Of a stretch of DNA of 41,750 nucleotides, positions 33,043-41,750 are shown in pieces. Each line of letters opens with the position of its first letter. Position 1 is the stretch's first letter. Source of the stretch: Clostridia bacterium (GTDB lineage Bacteria > Bacillota > Clostridia > Christensenellales > CAG-138); NCBI GenBank assembly GCA_017525875.1, contig JAFXSG010000024.1:1-41750 (forward strand), in the 5' to 3' direction. Position numbers and translations under genes: made by a program. The notes beneath the pieces were generated by a model. That model was not told the origin of the DNA. It ran no database searches and saw only the letters and a list, made by a program, of their open reading frames with translations.

Positions 33043-33930
33043 ATGAATAATCACAGCAGTGTTCTGAATAAAATCGTTTCCGCGATCGGTCTTATTCTTT
33101 GTGTCGTTTTCGGCCTCATGCTCATCTTCAATCTGCTGATAATCGCCAAAGGTCTTATCCAGCCCGACGTTCCCCCGTCCGTCTTCGGCCTTACGCCCAT
33201 GGTCGTCAAATCCGGATCTATGAGCAGCGACGTTCAGCACAAGCTCATGCGTACCGAGATCATCGATATGACCGATGAGCAGCTCGATGCGATCAAGGTC
33301 GGCGACGTCGTTTATTCAATGGTCGGCGACTACAAGCTCGAAAACCACATCGTCAGCGTAAACAATATGGATGACGATGAGTCGTCATTCTACCTTGTCG
33401 AGCGTCCCGCGGCGGACCATATCGAGGTCGGAGATCTGATCTTTTCAAAAAAGACCGACGCGGGCGACGTCAAGGTCGGCGACGTGATCTCCTTTATGGA
33501 GAACAAATCCGTAGTTACGCATAGGGTCATCGGCATCAAAGACGAAAACGGCAGCCGTTCCTTCGTTACGAAGGGCGACGCGAACAACGGAGAAGACGTT
33601 GGCGATCCCGTGCCGGAATCCGCTCTGGTAGGCGTCTACAAGGCCCGCGTTCCGATGCTCGGTGATTTCATTTACTTCCTGCAGAAGCCCCTCGGAATGG
33701 CGATCTTCATCGGTGTTCCCGTGCTTGCGTTCATAATCTTCGACATTATCCGCCGCAGCCGCAGCGGAAAGAAGGACGACGACAAGAAAAAGGAGCTTGA
33801 AAAAGAGCTGGAGCGCCTGCGTGCCCTTGCGAAGGAGCAGGAAGCAAGGCTCAACGCCGAAAAAACAAATTCCGACGTATCCGCTCAGCCCATCGAGAGC
33901 GAAAAGGTCGATCCGCCGGTACAGTCCTGA
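33043..33930 (+). CDS. SipW-type signal peptidase I (copy 1)
   Basis: 295 aa. There is an N-terminal membrane segment (about 8-36), then the catalytic serine in VKSGSMSSD (S59), the catalytic histidine in VTHRVIGI (H160) and TKGDANN (D179). A histidine base instead of lysine is the ER/SipW-type arrangement. An unusual insert of about 60 residues with KVGDVV and KVGDVIS repeats lies between serine and histidine. A second membrane segment (about 210-232) is followed by a Lys/Glu-rich coiled coil and Pro tail. It should process the TasA-like precursors encoded next. ATG 33043 has GGAGA upstream at 11 bases; a frame to 32926 starts inside the promoter. Confidence 0.87.
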   Translation: MNNHSSVLNKIVSAIGLILCVVFGLMLIFNLLIIAKGLIQPDVPPSVFGLTPMVVKSGSMSSDVQHKLMRTEIIDMTDEQLDAIKVGDVVYSMVGDYKLENHIVSVNNMDDDESSFYLVERPAADHIEVGDLIFSKKTDAGDVKVGDVISFMENKSVVTHRVIGIKDENGSRSFVTKGDANNGEDVGDPVPESALVGVYKARVPMLGDFIYFLQKPLGMAIFIGVPVLAFIIFDIIRRSRSGKKDDDKKKELEKELERLRALAKEQEARLNAEKTNSDVSAQPIESEKVDPPVQS

Positions 33931-34199
33931 CCGTTTCCCGTCCCCCCCGTAATTCCGGACCGGCGGCATAAGCCGACAAAACCCTCGCATTTATTTATTA
34001 AGGTATATTTCCGGCTGAACGACGCCACGGTCGTGCAGTCGGCAGTATAATTGTGGATCCAACCTAAGGGGAGCACGCCGCGCCACGGCAGCGCCGCTTC
34101 CGCAAGGGTTAAATTCACCGTTGGGACAACGCTTTGTCCCGATTATCCCTCAGGGCAAATCGTTGCCCCAACACACAATATTATAGGAGGAAAAATTCT
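33931..34199 (+). promoter_or_regulatory. Leader of the TasA-like gene
   Basis: 269 bases without a gene. It holds a TATAAT (34046-34051) with a poor -35 box, the inverted repeat at 34120-34172 and the AGGAGG ribosome site. An independent, stronger start for the TasA-like gene is probable, as its codon use suggests high expression. Confidence 0.45.
34120..34172. repeat. Imperfect inverted repeat (REP/MITE-like)
   Basis: GTTGGGACAACGCTTTGTCCC is followed at 34150-34172 by the near reverse complement (CAGGGCAAATCGTTGCCCCAAC). Each arm is itself a small hairpin (GGGACAA/TTGTCCC). It lies in the leader of the TasA-like gene. Confidence 0.6.
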
Positions 34200-35234
34200 A
34201 TGAAGAAGAATTGGACCACGAGAGTTGCAGTCGCACTGCTCGCTCTCACCATGATCACCAGCTGCTTCGTCGGCAGCACCTTCGCAAAGTACGTCACCCG
34301 TGCTGAAGGCGAAGACAATGCCCGCGTTGCAAAGTGGGGCATCCTGCTCGGCATGGAAGGCGACGACATGTTCGCTCCCGAGTATGAAGCGGATGACGAG
34401 AGCTTCACCGGCTCCGATGACAATGACGATCCCATCCTGAGCGTTCGCGTGGATCCCGACTATGACGGCGACATCACCGACCTCGTAGCTCCCGGCACCA
34501 CCAACGACGGCTTCAAGGCGACCATCGTCGGCAAGCCCGAAGTTGCAGTTCGCTACACCCTCCACATCGATCCCGATTGGTCCGACGTAGTTCTGCCCGC
34601 CGGCGAGTACACCGACTTCACCAAGCTCGTGAAGAAGGGCAATGAGCAGAGTGCAGACGATCCCGAGTACGGCTATTACGACACGTTCACCCTTGACGAG
34701 GACTACGCTCCCGTCAAGTGGGACATCAAGGTCTCCAAGAACGGCGGCACCCCCATCGGCCTTGTTGAATACGCATTCGCTTTCAATGAGCAGCTCGCAC
34801 TGGCAATGGGCATGACCAGGGACGGCGTTTCCGCGACCAATGCCGCGAACATCGTTAAGACCTATAGCACGCAGCTTGCCAACCTGCTTCTCAGCATGCT
34901 GAATGATCAGGGCGAAGCCGGTGCATCCAACGCAGTGTTCACCGTTGCGGATGACGGCACCATCGACCTCTCCATCGACTTCGATCCCAACAGGTCCCTC
35001 GACTTCGAGTTCAGCCTTGCCTGGAAGTGGCCCTTCGAGCAGGGTGAGAAGATCGAAGAGAATCCCGACATCTACGAGTTCGACGCAGCTGACACCTGGC
35101 TCGGCAACTTCGTTGCATACAAAGAGTTCGGCGAATGCGAGGACTACGCAGAAGAGTTCGACGCAGCTGAGCAGAATGGCGCAGCCTACACTATCGGCTT
35201 CAAATTCACCGCTACCGCGACCCAGATCGACTAA
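34200..35234 (+). CDS. TasA-like secreted surface/fibre protein (SipW-type signal)
   Basis: 344 aa. The signal peptide runs to about A29, with the SipW-cognate context CFVGSTFAKYVTRAEGEDNARVAKWG. The mature part is very acidic, beta-rich and free of lysine-rich repeats, with no cysteine except in the signal region. It ends in a beta-strand YTIGFKFTATATQID. The layout corresponds to TasA/CotN/camelysin-family matrix proteins, which polymerise into fibres in Bacillus. Codon use is strikingly restricted (C-ending codons), unlike its neighbours, suggesting a highly expressed product. AGGAGG precedes ATG 34200. Confidence 0.8.
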   Translation: MKKNWTTRVAVALLALTMITSCFVGSTFAKYVTRAEGEDNARVAKWGILLGMEGDDMFAPEYEADDESFTGSDDNDDPILSVRVDPDYDGDITDLVAPGTTNDGFKATIVGKPEVAVRYTLHIDPDWSDVVLPAGEYTDFTKLVKKGNEQSADDPEYGYYDTFTLDEDYAPVKWDIKVSKNGGTPIGLVEYAFAFNEQLALAMGMTRDGVSATNAANIVKTYSTQLANLLLSMLNDQGEAGASNAVFTVADDGTIDLSIDFDPNRSLDFEFSLAWKWPFEQGEKIEENPDIYEFDAADTWLGNFVAYKEFGECEDYAEEFDAAEQNGAAYTIGFKFTATATQID

Positions 35235-35457
35235 TTTCGATCAGCTAAGCATCTGACGTCAATTAAATGCTATTCCGACCCGCTCTCGTGGCGGGCGGGT
35301 CGGATCCCATGATGAGGACGTCCCCCGTTCCCCGTTCGGAACGGATCAATGTGCCCGGATACGGGCCTATTGATCTGCACCGAGATGCTCGATCCATCAG
35401 CCCGGCGGAGCGCCGGGAGAGCGGCGCTGACCGCTCATTGAGAAGGGAGTTCAGCTT
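35235..35457 (+). promoter_or_regulatory. Highly folded spacer between the two TasA-like genes
   Basis: 223 bases with several strong stems: TCCGACCCGC/GCGGGTCGGA (35274-35304), ATCAAT-GT-GCCCG/CGGGC-CT-ATTGAT (35345-35374), and CCCGGCG/CGCCGGG with AGCGG/CCGCT further on. There is no T run after the first stem, so it may be a processing or attenuation region lowering downstream expression. Confidence 0.5.
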
Positions 35458-36264
35458 ATGGCAAACAGCAAAAAAAGAAGAAATTGGCTTCTGCCGACGA
35501 CGCTTATTCTGTTCATTCTGTCGGTCATCACGCTTTCGCTGATGGCTGTGGTGACATATGCCTGGCGCAGCGAAGACCCCACCCATCTGCTCACCTTCGA
35601 AAACGAAAAGCTGACCTGGGACGAGAACACCGAGGTCGGTGAAAACGGCGTTGCGCACCTCTCCTTCTTCAACACTTATTATCAGAACGTCAACTCCGAG
35701 AACGGCGATAATGTTTTCGCGCCGGGCACGGAGCAGGATACGCTGATCCGTCTTAAGAACAACAGCGACGACGAGATCACCTACACCGCTATCGCATGGA
35801 CGATCAAGGAATGCGATATTCTTGAGCTCACCGGCGATTTCCGGGCCGAGGGTGCTACCCCGACCAATAACTACGAAGGCCTGCTGCCTCCCAACGTCAC
35901 TCCCGATGATCTTCTCGGCGTTGGAGCCGTCACCGGTACTGTCAGCGCAAAGGGTATTCAGGACTTTGATATCGGCTGGGAATGGATCTTCGAGCGCGGC
36001 GACGAAGTCGAGCCCGGCATCTATGAATCCGATTTCCCGGATACCTACCTCGGCAACAAAGCGGCATGGGATACCGCCGATGACTCAACGATCGGCTTTG
36101 CGATCATCGTTGAAGGCGAGACGCCTGTTCCTACCCCGCCCACCGGCCAGGGCTCGATGATCTACTGGGGCATCGGCCTCGTTGCTGTCGCGGGCATTAT
36201 CTTTGTTGCAGAACTGATCTTCTATCGCAGGCAGAAGAAGAAAGAAGAGCAGGAAGAAGCCTGA
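35458..36264 (+). CDS. Membrane-anchored TasA-like protein
   Basis: 268 aa. N-terminal signal/membrane segment (NWLLPTTLILFILSVITLSL) and a beta-rich acidic ectodomain whose WEWIFERGDEVEPGIYESD and TYLGN echo WKWPFEQGEKIEENPDIYEF and TWLGN in the protein before it. It then has a PTPPTGQGS stretch, a C-terminal membrane helix and a positively charged tail RRQKKKEE. The sorting-like end lacks a true LPxTG, so it is either a membrane-anchored base for the fibre or an unusual sortase substrate. GAAGGGAG upstream of ATG 35458. Confidence 0.75.
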   Translation: MANSKKRRNWLLPTTLILFILSVITLSLMAVVTYAWRSEDPTHLLTFENEKLTWDENTEVGENGVAHLSFFNTYYQNVNSENGDNVFAPGTEQDTLIRLKNNSDDEITYTAIAWTIKECDILELTGDFRAEGATPTNNYEGLLPPNVTPDDLLGVGAVTGTVSAKGIQDFDIGWEWIFERGDEVEPGIYESDFPDTYLGNKAAWDTADDSTIGFAIIVEGETPVPTPPTGQGSMIYWGIGLVAVAGIIFVAELIFYRRQKKKEEQEEA

Positions 36265-36306
36265 TACAGCAAACCGCTGATCGTGCGAAAGGAGCAACCG
36301 GAACCG

Positions 36307-37014
36307 ATGCCGGAAAAGGTTGATAACAGCCAATTGAAGAAGCCGACCGTTGGCAGGATCGTTCTGATCATCTTCGTGTTGCTTGTCGTCTACTGCTGTG
36401 TGTTCAGCCTCATCGCAAGATTCGTCAAGTCCGAATCGATACCGATGCCGCTCGGGTTCGGCGCAGCAACCGTGCTGACCGGCAGCATGGAGCCGACGCT
36501 GCACGTGAACTCGGTTGTCGTTGTCACAAAAGCCTCGCATTATGAGGTCGGCGATATCGTCGTTTACCAGACCGGAGGGACGCCGACTATCCACCGGATA
36601 ATCGAGCTTGACGAAGCTTCCGGGATCGTTGTCACACAGGGCGATGCGAACAACGCGCCCGATGAACCATTCACGACTTCACGGTTAAAAGGCAAGCTTG
36701 CTTTCTCCATCCCATTCGTTGGGATCGTGTTCCGGTTCATAAAGACCGTTCCGGGCATTATAATGATCCTCGTTTTGGTCTTCACGCTGTTCTACCTTTC
36801 CGTCCGGGCAAAGGAACAGGATGCGGCTGCTGAAAAAAAGGCCGGCGAGATGAGGGATGAGATCGAGAAGCTCCGTCACGATCTTTCGATTTGCGATGAT
36901 GGGTCTTATAAAGCGCTGATTGCTCGTGAAGAGCAGGAGATCGACAGCAAGAAGGAAGAGATCAAGCGGCTTCGTGCGAAGCTTGGGCTTGATGATCAGC
37001 CAAAAGACAATTAA
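36307..37014 (+). CDS. SipW-type signal peptidase I (copy 2)
   Basis: 235 aa. N-terminal membrane helix about 16-40, catalytic S60 in VLTGSMEPTL, H96 in PTIHRIIEL and D113 in TQGDANNAPD, then a second membrane helix (about 146-168) and a 65-residue coiled coil rich in Glu/Lys. Serine-histidine catalysis marks the SipW/ER type. It lacks the insert of copy 1. Start ATG 36307 has AGGAG 12 bases before it; GTG 36283 is in frame but lacks a site. It probably processes the small TasA-like protein and the cohesin protein behind it. Confidence 0.9.
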   Translation: MPEKVDNSQLKKPTVGRIVLIIFVLLVVYCCVFSLIARFVKSESIPMPLGFGAATVLTGSMEPTLHVNSVVVVTKASHYEVGDIVVYQTGGTPTIHRIIELDEASGIVVTQGDANNAPDEPFTTSRLKGKLAFSIPFVGIVFRFIKTVPGIIMILVLVFTLFYLSVRAKEQDAAAEKKAGEMRDEIEKLRHDLSICDDGSYKALIAREEQEIDSKKEEIKRLRAKLGLDDQPKDN

Positions 37015-37068
37015 GATGGATGATGGTTTTTCTGCCTGATGGCAGTTTCAAAGGTTAGGAGGGATCGT

Positions 37069-37563
37069 ATGAAGAACAAGAAAGCGTCAAGAGGCATTCT
37101 GATCGACATTGCGCTTTTGCTTGTTTGCCTCGTATGTATTACAACATGCCTATCGTCCGGCATTATGGCGCGTTTCGTTTCACGCACGGATAGCGCTGAT
37201 AAGGCACGTGCCGCAAAGTTTGACGTCAGCGTTAGTGCCAGCGATACTACTGCCACGCTTTCGCTCGACCAGAATACGGCTGAATACAGCATGAAGATCA
37301 GCAACCATTCCGAAACTGCGGTCTCCTACTCTCTGATCATAACCTTCGAGAACGACGTCACCGATCTCATCACGGCAAAAGTCGGCGACAGGGAATTCCA
37401 TCCCGACAGCAGCGGCAAGATCATCTGCATTGACGATATCGGCGTAATACAGGCCGGCAAAGATGTGGATGCGGTGTTCAGCTTGATCGTTAACAATGCA
37501 TTTATCAACGGCCTTACCGAGATCGTTTTCAGTACCGACGTTCGGTTCGTCCAGGTGGATTAA
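37069..37563 (+). CDS. Small TasA/camelysin-like secreted protein
   Basis: 164 aa. The signal peptide (ILIDIALLLVCLVCITTCL) ends in SGIMARFVSRTDSADKARAAKFD, clearly parallel to AKYVTRAEGEDNARVAKW of the large TasA-like protein. The rest is a short beta-sandwich (YSMKISNHSETAVSYSLII). It could be a minor fibre subunit. AGGAGGG precedes ATG 37069. Lies between signal peptidase copy 2 and the cohesin protein, 12 bases from the latter. Confidence 0.8.
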   Translation: MKNKKASRGILIDIALLLVCLVCITTCLSSGIMARFVSRTDSADKARAAKFDVSVSASDTTATLSLDQNTAEYSMKISNHSETAVSYSLIITFENDVTDLITAKVGDREFHPDSSGKIICIDDIGVIQAGKDVDAVFSLIVNNAFINGLTEIVFSTDVRFVQVD

Positions 37564-37575
37564 GGAGGAGCAAAT

Positions 37576-38436
37576 ATGACGCAGACGTTCAAAGACCTCT
37601 CTCCAAAGCGCCGTTCTCTCCGAATCGGATTGTTGATACTTGCACTCGTTCTTTTGACGGCCACCATCGGAGTTTCGGCCAAGTACGTTTCCGATAAGCG
37701 GGCTTTTAAAGGGACTTTGATACTCCCCCCTTCCGATCTGGTCATCTTTACGGTTGGTCCGGAAGTGGAAACAGCAGCCGCCGGTGAGGATATCACCGTT
37801 GACATCAGTCTTTCCGGTACGTATGCGGCTCATTCGATGCAGCTCAGATTGTCGTATGATATGGATAAGCTGGAGCTTGATCTCAGCAATATCGTAAAGG
37901 AGTCCGTGCTCAACGCTATTACCGGCAACGGCGGTTGGGTCGAGATCAAGGAGAACCCCCAACACGAGGTAATCATCATGGCGATCTCCACCAGCGAGAG
38001 CTTTTCCGTTGAAGGCAAGATCGTTTCCTTAAAGTTCCATGTTAAGGATACTGCTCCCGCAGGAGAAGCAAAGGTCAAGCTTACTGTTGACGAACTGAAG
38101 TACGTTCCTGTGGATTCCACCCTCGCTTCTGAGCAGATCGACATCCCGCACAAAGTTCAGCCCGAGGAATTCATCATTCCCATCGCTGCAGGCGAAACCG
38201 GCGAGCCCGGCAACACCGCCAAAGCACAGCCTGCTACGACGGCTACTCCGGAGCCCGAAGATCCCGTCACTGAGGAGACCGACGAGCCTATGGATCCAAC
38301 TGATCCGGTCGATCCCACCGATGATCCCGATGATTCGACTGAACCGGTGATTACGCCAGAGAATCCCGATGATTCTATCGATCCGATAATCCCGACCGAT
38401 AATCCCGATCCCGAGGATCCCGGAGTCGGCGAGTGA
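37576..38436 (+). CDS. Secreted protein with SipW-type signal and cohesin-like domain
   Basis: 286 aa. The N-terminal membrane segment leads into GVSAKYVSDKRAFKG, the same signal context as the TasA-like proteins. Residues about 52-190 look like a cohesin: ETAAAGEDITVDISLSG, MQLRLSYDMDKLELD, SVEGKIVSLKFHVKDTAPAG and KVKLTVDEL. The C-terminal 90 residues are an acidic Pro/Asp/Glu/Thr tail of cell-wall-spacer type with no anchor. Cohesins bind dockerins, and a dockerin ends the large neighbouring protein. Thus the protein may attach dockerin-bearing partners to the fibre. GGAGG before ATG 37576. Confidence 0.72.
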   Translation: MTQTFKDLSPKRRSLRIGLLILALVLLTATIGVSAKYVSDKRAFKGTLILPPSDLVIFTVGPEVETAAAGEDITVDISLSGTYAAHSMQLRLSYDMDKLELDLSNIVKESVLNAITGNGGWVEIKENPQHEVIIMAISTSESFSVEGKIVSLKFHVKDTAPAGEAKVKLTVDELKYVPVDSTLASEQIDIPHKVQPEEFIIPIAAGETGEPGNTAKAQPATTATPEPEDPVTEETDEPMDPTDPVDPTDDPDDSTEPVITPENPDDSIDPIIPTDNPDPEDPGVGE

Positions 38437-38454
38437 TAAACAAATACAATCATG

Positions 38455-38487
38455 AAGACCTATGCAAGACTGCATAGGTCTTGTTTT
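38455..38487 (+). terminator. Terminator of the SipW/TasA locus
   Basis: AAGACCTATGCA (38455-38466) and TGCATAGGTCTT (38471-38482), a perfect 12-bp stem followed by GTTTT. Confidence 0.85.
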
Positions 38488-38853
38488 ATGCTCATCGTAC
38501 CGTGCCGCATTTGTCCGGGCTGCCTTCAGCGCACACCTGCGTCTTCCTGCGGATGGATCCGCCGGTTGTACGGTTAACCTCCACTCAAGCATTATGCATT
38601 CAGATTCCGTTTGTACCGTTGGTTTTGCAGTTGAAGCCTTATCCGTTGTTTATCCCCTTCCATCGGCCTTTGATGTGTTGTAAATCCGGTCTATAAGAGA
38701 AAATTGTTCTTCCGTTACAGGCCCAATATGAGCCTTTTATCGCATGGCATTATCGGTTCAGAGCTATGTACCGAATAACGTTCGCCAAACATGCAGTAAA
38801 GTACAAACAATAGTTGTAAAGGCTCATTAGTTTTGCCGGACGCCGTTAAACAA
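38488..38853. other. Gene-free stretch between convergent operons
   Basis: No supported gene; frames have no ribosome site or known product. No clear repeat or promoter seen. Confidence 0.4.
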
Positions 38854-38885
38854 ACAAGCCGATTCCAAACATGGGATCGGCTTGT
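38854..38885 (-). terminator. Terminator of the dockerin protein gene
   Basis: ACAAGCCGAT (38854-38863) and ATCGGCTTGT (38876-38885), a perfect 10-bp stem followed on the minus strand by TTGTTTAACGG. Confidence 0.75.
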
Positions 38886-38930
38886 CTCGATCAGTTATTC
38901 GGTTTTAGCCGTACTTGTTCGGCCGTTATG

Positions 38931-41750
38931 TCACTGAAGAGTCCATTTCCCAATTATCCTTACCAGATTGCGCATGATCAATATCGCGTCGTTTGCAGTG
39001 ACTTCGCCGTCGCCGTCAATATCGGCATTGATGAATTGCTGGCCTGTGAGGGTAATGATGCTCATCGCATGCCTCATTGCAAGCAGTGCGTCGACTGCTG
39101 TCACTGTTCCGCTCAGGTCGACGTCGCCAAGCAGATACTCTGTGTAAGTCGCGGTGTAGGTCGCGTCGCCGGTTACCGTTGCGATCTCGGGATCCCAGCC
39201 TTTGAAAATGTACCTATGCAGCCCATCCGAAGCCTTGGTCGGAGTCTCGCCGGTGTAGACGGGAGTGTCGCCGTATGCGACATCGATGACCTGCAGCTCT
39301 GTGCCGTCCTCGTTCACGAACTTTATCGTGTACAGCCTTACAGCTTCATTGTAAATCGCTGTATAGGTCGCTTCACCTGTAACAGCCGCGATCTCGGGAT
39401 CCCAGCCAGCAAAGGTGTAAGTATGATCGACGGTCGGAGCCTTGGTCGGGGTCTCGCCTGCATAGGCGGGAGTGTCGCCGTATGCAATCTCGGAACTCTG
39501 CAGCACGGTGCCGTCATAGTTCACGAACTTGATCGTGTACTTGTTGACGGTCGCAGTGTAGGTCGCTGTGTAAGTCGCGTCGCAGGTTACGGACACTATC
39601 GCGGGAGTCCAGCAATCGAAGGTGTAGGTGTACTGCGCGGTTGCTTCCTTGGCCGGAGTCACACCGTTGTACTCGGGCATCTCGCCATAGGCCACTTTGC
39701 TGCTCTGCAGCACTGAGCCGTCCTCGTTCACGAACGTGATCGTGTATTCGTTGACGGTCGCGGTGAACGTTGCGGTGTAGGTTGTGTTGCCTTCAACAGC
39801 GGCGACTTCCGGAGTCCAGCCCGCGAAGGTGTAGGTGTACTGCGCGTCAGCGGGCTTGGTCGGAGTCTCGCCGTTGTATTCGGGCACGGTGCCGTATGCA
39901 ACGTTCTCGTCCTTTTCAAGCTCCGTGCCGTCGTAGTTGTTCCAGGTCACGGTGTAGGTGTTCGTTGCGGTGGTAAAGGTTGCGGTGTAGGTCGCGTCGT
40001 CGGTCACTTCTGCCACAGCAGGGGTCCACTTATCGAAGATGTAGCTGAACTGCGCATCGCCGGGCTTTACGGGAGTTGCGCCGTCATAGGTGGGAACAGT
40101 GCCGTAGGGTACGTTCTCATCGGTTTCAAGCACCGTGCCGTCTTCGTTCTTCCAAATAACGGTATAGGTGTTGACTGTCGCGGTATAGGTCGCGGTATAG
40201 GTCGCGTCTCCGGTGACAGATGCGATCTCGGGAGTCCAGCCGGAGAAGGTGTAGGTAAACTCGGCGGTCGCTGCCTTGGTCGGGGTCTCGCCGGTGTAGG
40301 CGGGAGTCGCGCCATAGGCTACTTCACTGCTCTGCAGCTCGGTGCCGTCCTCGTTCACGAACTTGATCGTGTACTTGTTGACGGTGGAGCTGTAGGTCGC
40401 GGTGTAGGTCGTTTCGCCGGTGACCTCCGTGATCTCGGGAGTCCAGCCCGCGAAGGTGTAGGTGTACTGTGCGGTCGCTTCCTTGGTCGGGGTCTCGCCG
40501 TTGTAGACGGGAGTCTGACCGTACTCGACTTCGCCGCTCTGCAACTCGGTGCCGTCCTCGTTCACGAACTTGATCGTGTACTCGTTTAAGGTTGAGGCGT
40601 AGGTCGCGGTGTAGGTTGCATCGCCGGTGACGGCTGTGATCTCCGGAGTCCAGCCTGTGAAGGTGTAGGTGTACTGCGCGTCAGCGGGCTTGGTCGGGGC
40701 CTCGCCGTTGTAGGCAGGCATTGCACCATACTCGACTTCGCTGCTCTGCAGCTCGATGCCGTCGTAGTTCACGAACTTGATCGTGTACTTGTTGACGGTC
40801 GCGGTGTAGGTCGCGGTGTAGGTCGCTTCGCCTGTGACTGCAGCAATCTCGGGAGTCCAGCCCTTGAAGGTGTAGGTGAATTCAGCAGTCGCTGCCTTGG
40901 TCGGGGTCTCGCCGGTGTATTCGGGCGTTGCGCCGTATGCCACCTCGCTGCTCTGCAGCTCGGTGCCGTCCTCATCCACGAACGTGATCATGTACTTGTT
41001 GACGGTCTCGGTATAGGTCGCGGTATAGGTCGCTTCGCCGGTGACTGCAACGACTGTCGGCGTCCAGCCTGCGAAGGTGTAGGTGTACTGCGCGGTCGCC
41101 GCCTTGGAAGGATCCGCGTGAGTGGGGACTGTGCCGTACTCGACCGAGGTGGTGTTGATCACGGTACCGTCGTCGTCCTTCCAGGTGATGGTGTAGCTTC
41201 TCTTGGTAGCGGTGAAGTTCGCTGTGTAAGACGCATCACCGGTGACAGTGGTGATCTCTGGCGTCCAGCCGGAGAACGTATATGTGAACTCTGCCGTCGC
41301 CTCTTTGACGGGATCGGCATGGCTCGGAGTTGCACCGTACGCGTATTCCTCAAGCTCCACCATGTCGCCGATGATCCAGGTGATGGTGTACCTCTTGAGC
41401 GTCATGTTCCAGGTCGCGGTGTAGGTCGCATCCGCGGTCGCGGGAACGATCTCGGGATCCCAGCCCGCGAAGGTGTAGGTGTACTGAGCGGTCGCCGCCT
41501 TGGAAGGATCCGCGTGAATGGGGACAGTGCCGTATTCGACTGTGGTGGTGTCGATCACGGTACCGTCGTCGTCCTTCCAGGTGATGGTGTAACTGTTGAC
41601 CGTTTGAGTGTATGTCGCGGTATAGGTCGCATCCGCGGTCGCGGGAACGATCTCGGGATCCCAGCCCGCGAAGGTGTAGGTGTACTGAGCGGTCGCCGCC
41701 TTGGAAGGATCCGCGTGAATGGGGACAGTGCCGTATTCGACTGTGGTGGT
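38931..41750 (-). CDS. Large B-repeat (Flg_new-type) surface protein with C-terminal dockerin, 5' end beyond window
   Basis: About 940 residues are visible, and the frame is open through the right edge, so the N-terminus is missing. They comprise twelve complete and one partial repeat of 66-70 residues, each with Y-T-I-x-F/W-x-x-x-D-G-T, YG-x-x-P, YTFAGWTPEI and ATYTATY. This is the InlB B-repeat/Listeria-Bacteroides repeat type. The C-terminal 68 residues are a type I dockerin with two calcium loops: DVDLSGTVTAVDALLAMRHAM and DIDGDGEVTANDAILIMRNL. The long stretch of repeats would make an extended rod outside the cell. No cell-wall anchor is visible, so attachment via the dockerin to a cohesin, such as the one at 37576-38436, is likely. 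Confidence 0.9.
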   Translation of the reverse strand, partial: TTTVEYGTVPIHADPSKAATAQYTYTFAGWDPEIVPATADATYTATYTQTVNSYTITWKDDDGTVIDTTTVEYGTVPIHADPSKAATAQYTYTFAGWDPEIVPATADATYTATWNMTLKRYTITWIIGDMVELEEYAYGATPSHADPVKEATAEFTYTFSGWTPEITTVTGDASYTANFTATKRSYTITWKDDDGTVINTTSVEYGTVPTHADPSKAATAQYTYTFAGWTPTVVAVTGEATYTATYTETVNKYMITFVDEDGTELQSSEVAYGATPEYTGETPTKAATAEFTYTFKGWTPEIAAVTGEATYTATYTATVNKYTIKFVNYDGIELQSSEVEYGAMPAYNGEAPTKPADAQYTYTFTGWTPEITAVTGDATYTATYASTLNEYTIKFVNEDGTELQSGEVEYGQTPVYNGETPTKEATAQYTYTFAGWTPEITEVTGETTYTATYSSTVNKYTIKFVNEDGTELQSSEVAYGATPAYTGETPTKAATAEFTYTFSGWTPEIASVTGDATYTATYTATVNTYTVIWKNEDGTVLETDENVPYGTVPTYDGATPVKPGDAQFSYIFDKWTPAVAEVTDDATYTATFTTATNTYTVTWNNYDGTELEKDENVAYGTVPEYNGETPTKPADAQYTYTFAGWTPEVAAVEGNTTYTATFTATVNEYTITFVNEDGSVLQSSKVAYGEMPEYNGVTPAKEATAQYTYTFDCWTPAIVSVTCDATYTATYTATVNKYTIKFVNYDGTVLQSSEIAYGDTPAYAGETPTKAPTVDHTYTFAGWDPEIAAVTGEATYTAIYNEAVRLYTIKFVNEDGTELQVIDVAYGDTPVYTGETPTKASDGLHRYIFKGWDPEIATVTGDATYTATYTEYLLGDVDLSGTVTAVDALLAMRHAMSIITLTGQQFINADIDGDGEVTANDAILIMRNLVRIIGKWTLQ
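38931..41750 (-). repeat. Tandem ~205-bp coding repeats of the B-repeat protein
   Basis: Near-identical units of about 66-70 codons run from about 39140 to the right edge. The repeats at 41450-41600 and 41640-41750 are almost identical over long stretches, a sign of recent duplication and a place where assembly could miscount. Confidence 0.85.

Follow-up and report, generated by a model that had tools for sequence, protein, structure and literature searches.

Can a SipW-type surface fibre use a cellulosome-style module to hold other proteins? This question is raised by one locus of a Clostridia bacterium (assembly GCA_017525875.1, contig JAFXSG010000024.1). The window that we analysed is this entire contig (C35 in our numbering), 41,750 bases long, and the locus fills its last part, up to the contig end at 41750. 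Cohesin-dockerin pairs have mainly been described as the means by which enzymes are arranged on scaffoldins, and SipW fibres in connection with the biofilm matrix. A first-pass annotation had placed both systems side by side here, with a run of SipW-type peptidases and TasA-like proteins that includes a cohesin-like domain, and a convergent repeat protein that ends in a dockerin. In the present analysis, we found that the conserved feature is the fibre cassette together with the dockerin-tagged repeat protein, and that it is shared by two genera. We tentatively read the locus as the SipW-dependent surface-fibre cassette of a cellulosome-building bacterium, with a cohesin inserted into the accessory protein that would let the fibre hold dockerin-tagged proteins, the giant neighbour first. 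We regard this reading as a serious possibility, short of an even chance.

The cassette consists of six forward-strand genes across 33043-38436, which encode SipW-type peptidase 1, TasA1, TasA2, SipW-type peptidase 2, TasA3, and the accessory protein (Table 1). TasA1 to TasA3 are labels, and the term TasA-like is based on gene context. The order of the six genes is identical in seven loci, and an eighth locus (L100) ends inside TasA1. We found the cassette in 2 of the 11 genomes of the genus, in 7 of the 103 genomes of the family (one of them by the front of TasA1 alone), and in the metagenome-assembled genome (MAG) UBA3851. Besides the window, the carriers are the sister species (L080), UBA3851, and a second genus, g40 (L095-L099, with the full order). 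It should be noted that all sequence data in the analysis are MAGs, and the source genome is a single one (2.49 Mb, 53 contigs, 92% complete). Furthermore, TasA1-type subunits were present in 19 of the 396 genomes of the order, and relatives of TasA1 were not found in viral contigs.

A protein with a Pfam-level dockerin at its end lies beside the cassette in all six loci whose contig reaches that far (the window, L080, L096, L097, L098, and L099; the dockerin end of the L096 neighbour was read in L176). L100 and L095 end before the dockerin position. The repeat gene of L095 is similar but unfinished and contains a run of N. In the window and L080, the cassette and the repeat gene converge; in L096-L099, and likewise in L095, both point the same way. 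In four of these five same-direction loci (L095, L096, L097, and L099, called by Pfam for L096 and L097 and by eye for L095 and L099), a gene of the prolipoprotein diacylglyceryl transferase (LGT) family lies between the accessory gene and the giant gene; it is absent from L098. Meanwhile, the gene directly upstream of SipW1 in the sister species (L080:1571-4183) codes for a dockerin-tagged protein that looks subtilisin-like by eye. Together with the repeat neighbour, dockerin genes thus flank the cassette on both sides in this species. The cohesin and dockerin profiles that we built gave no hit at E 1e-4 in 17 TasA1-type loci from other families, some of them on short contigs.

The accessory gene has a constant part and a variable part. 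The constant part comprises the signal and, just after it, a short segment in which AKY is followed by a few residues and then V-x-G-T/K-L/I. The variable part is a T/P/E-rich tail in L080, L095, L097, and L098, a tail with a further stretch in L096, other sequence in L099, and a cohesin with a tail in the window. The cohesin-like domain that had been noticed in the product of 37576-38436 was confirmed by Pfam, above the cut-off. The genome-wide cohesin scan located it at the same position, and it was also matched in cohesin searches against the scaffoldins of the genome. In addition, a profile that combines the window cohesin with seven more from the genome had hits to 15 solved sequences at E 0.01 or better. 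By name, eleven of these are scaffoldin, cohesin, anchoring, or cellulase molecules and four are NagJ; this result supports the cohesin group and not the window row alone. Among the 47 cohesin frames in the loci examined, an AKY-type signal was seen in the window only. Of the other 46 frames, 30 show an N-terminal signal that is ordinary by eye, and the remainder are fragments. These frames and the cohesin tree discussed below were drawn from fetched loci, a subset of the cohesins of the family. A wider search of genome contigs with the cohesin protein gave no match, and no relative of this protein was found in plasmids.

The reading frame of the accessory gene is unbroken, and the signal and the T/P-rich tail that flank the cohesin both match relatives. 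Thus, the simplest history is that a cohesin was inserted into the accessory protein. The domain looks like a lineage-specific insertion, because its loss in all other loci would cost more. It most likely turns the accessory protein into a docking point. Three other cohesin proteins of the genome that were read to their ends (1490, 1249, and 283 residues) close with PTPPTG or PPETG followed by a hydrophobic stretch and RKKED. Unlike them, the window protein has no sorting tail, and therefore something else should hold it. The comparison of gene order in related genomes gave a divided result. The cassette with a dockerin-tagged repeat protein recurs, but the version with a cohesin was found in the window only, which comes close to the case that the first-pass annotation had named as refuting its reading, relatives in which the two genes are never found side by side.

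The other partner, described in the first-pass annotation as a convergent B-repeat protein of more than 900 residues with a type I dockerin at its end, was upheld, with 939 residues visible and the dockerin above the Pfam cut-off. The visible part has 13 repeat marks with a spacing of 65-71 residues. As the contig ends at 41750, the protein is longer than this part. Contig C5 of the source genome ends (L185:8036-16677) with an LGT-family gene and the front of a giant repeat protein, a 2,630-residue open frame that runs off the contig. The C5 frame and the window gene have the same kind of repeats. We infer that the window gene is probably the C-terminal end of the C5 giant protein, and that the block of LGT gene and giant gene was probably inverted in the genus; this link is limited by the facts that the contigs are unjoined and that similar repeats also occur on C44. 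On C44 (L104, about 85.9-91.4 kb), a cohesin-bearing frame has a TAG inside one cohesin and window-like repeats adjoining it, which is either a broken gene or a MAG error.

We compared 36 dockerin segments, taken from the loci of the 30 top-scoring places (out of 61) and from a few further loci. The spacer pattern of the window dockerin recurs in eight other segments, which are 63-73% identical to this dockerin. Among segments without the pattern, one reaches 63% and one 29-residue fragment 66%. Five of the eight stand behind B-type repeats, two are fragments with only the last residues of the repeat, and one is not behind a repeat. In addition, the pattern is present in the dockerin of the L080 neighbour and absent from the dockerins of g40. 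Similar repeats also stand before some dockerins outside the pattern group (by eye in L008, L028, and L040), which speaks against an exclusive link. These comparisons suggest a set of repeat proteins that may have one docking specificity.

The whole genome has 13 cohesin matches and 61 dockerin matches over the cut-off, and we grouped the cohesin matches into six genes. Proteins with four and two cohesins (scaffoldins) are present and have wall-sorting-like tails. Judged from these predicted modules, the genome is of the cellulosome type, with multi-cohesin scaffoldins and many dockerin proteins, and the window thus comes from an organism in which cohesin-dockerin assembly is already in use. 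A dockerin lies within 3.5 kb of five of the six cohesin genes (chance 0.19 per gene, P 0.001 against random placement). Adjacency was considered as special evidence for the pair in the window and was rejected, since the clustering of cohesins and dockerins is real but genome-wide.

Table 1. Coordinates of the features of the locus; positions are those of the window unless a locus is named
Feature	Position	Strand	Remarks
SipW-type signal peptidase 1	33043..33930	+	TIGR02228 89.2 bits (cut-off 51.85); kept in 8/8 cassette loci
TasA1, subunit-like protein	34200..35234	+	344 residues; AKYVT signal context; orthologues 46-78% identical in 6 loci
Conserved G+C-rich RNA hairpin between TasA1 and TasA2	35275..35303	+	7/7 loci (window, L080, L095-L099); 11 pairs, 3 with changes on both sides
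TasA2, subunit-like protein	35458..36264	+	268 residues; C-terminal PPTG, hydrophobic stretch, basic tail; possible sortase anchor
SipW-type signal peptidase 2	36283..37014	+	TIGR02228 82.6 bits (cut-off 51.85)
TasA3, subunit-like protein	37069..37563	+	164 residues; ARFVS signal context; related to TasA1
Accessory protein	37576..38436	+	286 residues; AKYVS signal context, short kept segment, cohesin, acidic T/P-rich tail; without sorting tail
Cohesin domain	37765..38085	+	residues 64-169; PF00963 34.5 bits (cut-off 24.1), E 2.9e-8
Terminator-like hairpin	38455..38482	+	after cassette; 12 pairs; 10 such sites in region against 6.9 +/- 2.5 in shuffles
B-repeat-type protein	38931..41750	-	C-terminal 939 residues; open 5' end, cut by contig end
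Type I dockerin	38964..39131	-	residues 874-929; PF00404 36.1 bits (cut-off 22.9), E 7.4e-9; profile positions 1-56 of 57, with the two calcium-loop repeats
LGT-family genes	L096:10727-11431, L097:8131-8823, L099:5305-5994		also before giant gene in L095

For the cassette itself, both SipW-type peptidases scored above the TIGR02228 cut-off, in agreement with the earlier call of two such enzymes. With the Bacillus SipW equivalog NF046067, they scored 77.7 and 64.8 bits and did not reach its cut-off of 190 bits. At the sequence level, the earlier description of the subunits as TasA-like found no support, as neither Pfam, NCBIfam, nor PDB gave a significant match to TasA or CalY. PF12389 (TasA/CalY/camelysin) matched neither the window proteins nor any of 20 TasA1-type members; it does match three reference proteins from plasmid SipW loci. 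The best score with a TasA-system model was 14.4 bits (cut-off 80), obtained with the TapA model TIGR04087 on the 37039-37563 product, and the accessory protein was not matched by this model. When profiles were compared with those of annotated TasA-family proteins and of neighbouring proteins from plasmid SipW loci, the probability was 12-27%, and the alignments lay mostly over the signal region. The TasA1 and TasA3 families are related to each other (97.9% probability in profile comparison). A structure predicted for TasA1 from a 3-row alignment had a mean predicted local distance difference test score (pLDDT) of 46, and this low-confidence model gave no significant fold match. The signal context A-K/R-Y/F-V-S/T, which had been assigned to all three subunit-like proteins, was seen in TasA1, TasA3, and the accessory protein, but TasA2 has YAWRS. 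What links the cassette to the Bacillus system is its dedicated SipW-type peptidases and the AKY/ARF context of the signals, a context that TasA2 lacks. Judged from the starts of relatives, the first subunit gene starts at 34200 (34134 in the earlier call) and the third at 37069 (earlier 37039).

At the end of TasA2, a TG followed by a hydrophobic stretch is found in all seven loci, and the C-terminal PTPPTG motif is common to two of the cohesin proteins of the genome. The genome has one sortase, and no NCBIfam anchor model matched the TasA2 tail. The hairpin between TasA1 and TasA2 perhaps sets the dose of TasA1 relative to the genes behind it. Other SipW-type loci were also seen. In genome G004 of the genus, a lone SipW-type peptidase adjoins one exported protein, without the cassette (L081:9104-10723). 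In other families, L164, L168, L169, and L171 are SipW-type loci with frames of 1,200-1,330 residues that bear their own SipW-like signals and have no dockerin-tagged neighbour. A plasmid record of Acetoanaerobium noterae (L200:4890-7759) holds an unannotated SipW locus with two TasA-like proteins and an LPRTG-type-tailed protein (by eye), which resembles TasA2.

In Bacillus, each TasA subunit donates a strand to the next one, and the N-terminus of TapA starts the fibre (PMC9674648, PMC10151520). If the present fibre is analogous, the accessory protein could be plugged into it by its kept segment. We propose that the two peptidases would process the AKY/ARF-type signals, that TasA1 and TasA3 would polymerise by strand donation like Bacillus TasA, and that the PPTG tail seen in TasA2 would be sorted and anchor the fibre to the wall. 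The accessory protein might then enter the fibre by the segment kept after its signal and expose its variable part. In the window, the exposed part is by profile a cohesin, which may bind dockerins, probably including that of the neighbour.

The Bacillus TasA/TapA/SipW and CalY/TasA/CapP filaments (PMC9674648, PMC10151520, PMC13082335) share with our locus a dedicated SipW peptidase that is encoded with several small exported proteins and an accessory protein. The present locus differs from them in its two peptidases, the PPTG-tailed member, the variable accessory protein, and the dockerin-tagged repeat protein, and sequence homology of the subunits was not found. Cellulosomes with a sortase-anchored scaffoldin (such as ScaE of Ruminococcus flavefaciens; PMC12484212) share the cohesin and dockerin modules and the scaffoldins with wall-sorting-like tails, whereas in the present locus the cohesin belongs to a fibre-cassette protein that has a SipW signal and no sorting tail, and the dockerin close by is carried by a repeat protein instead of an enzyme. 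A further likeness is the same cassette in Tb.RUG.61, UBA3851, and genus g40 (L080, L095-L099), which has the same gene order, a dockerin-tagged repeat neighbour in five of six loci (those whose contig reaches it), and a cohesin in none of the six. In the available portions of the literature searched (including PMC12484212 and PMC5817068, with subscription papers mostly outside the scope), nothing was found that joins TasA or SipW with cohesin or dockerin (the single TasA hit in PMC12484212 is the name of an author), and the mixture, as had been supposed at first, is seemingly undescribed.

Several observations weigh against a docking fibre. The Pfam cohesin is present in one of seven accessory genes, that of the window only, and the sister species and four loci of the other genus have the dockerin protein beside an accessory gene without a cohesin. 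These cassette relatives keep the dockerin without a cassette cohesin, and therefore the repeat protein must have another docking site as well, probably on scaffoldins. In addition, the numbers of cohesins and dockerins in the genome give each partner many alternatives. It is possible, although we lean against it, that the repeat protein docks on ordinary sortase-anchored scaffoldins, that the cassette cohesin binds other dockerin proteins or contributes little, and that the two genes are neighbours through joint adhesion. The genomes of the relatives have 4-15 cohesin matches each, the source genome has its own tailed scaffoldins with four and two cohesins, and the g40 dockerins differ from the spacer pattern of the window. 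However, this explanation leaves the entry of a cohesin into exactly this accessory gene, beside a dockerin gene, unexplained. A specific co-evolved cohesin-dockerin pair was considered as well and is not shown, with a cohesin in one of seven accessory genes against a dockerin in six of six readable neighbours.

The cohesin itself is divergent, with 21-30% identity to the other 12 cohesins of the genome. In a tree of 94 cohesin domains, it was unplaced and had a long branch and an unusual composition, and a phmmer search with its protein alone matched no solved cohesin. This could mean that the inserted module kept the cohesin fold but not dockerin binding and serves as a spacer or another binding domain; cohesin-like folds do serve other roles, for example the NagJ module among the PDB profile matches. 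We consider it unlikely, because the domain is above the Pfam cut-off and is matched in cohesin searches against the scaffoldins of the genome, and the organism is full of dockerins. The subunits also count against the fibre, since no search found their homology to TasA, CalY, or camelysin, and the window arrangement is known from one MAG only. A chance neighbourhood or an assembly artefact would fit a MAG in 53 contigs with a repeat gene that breaks at a contig end, in a genome where cohesin-dockerin adjacency is common. Nevertheless, this is very improbable, because the same gene order with a dockerin neighbour was seen again in an independent MAG from the genus and at four loci in another genus, and the accessory frame is unbroken, with a signal and a T/P-rich tail like those of relatives on both sides of the cohesin. 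The earlier proposal of a fibre that docks a rod-like protein as a paired unit thus holds in part. Both modules are real, the cohesin is inside the accessory protein of a SipW cassette, and the dockerin neighbour is found in two genera, but the pairing does not extend to the relatives, whose dockerin has no cassette cohesin.

We therefore return to the fibre cassette with an inserted cohesin that would hold dockerin-tagged proteins. Its fuller form is a strand-donation-type fibre with a cohesin-bearing accessory subunit, on which cellulosome-style docking would fasten a giant dockerin-tagged adhesin (more than 3,000 residues if it begins with the C5 fragment); this form is doubtful. The window and the sister species differ by one domain, and thus the idea is directly testable. 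If it is true, the sister species without the cohesin would form, with the window, a natural before-and-after pair for the spread of cohesin-dockerin docking from enzymes to fibres. In any case, the link between the SipW cassette and the dockerin-tagged repeat protein is kept in two genera, which suggests that surface fibres and adhesins, too, are organised by the docking code.

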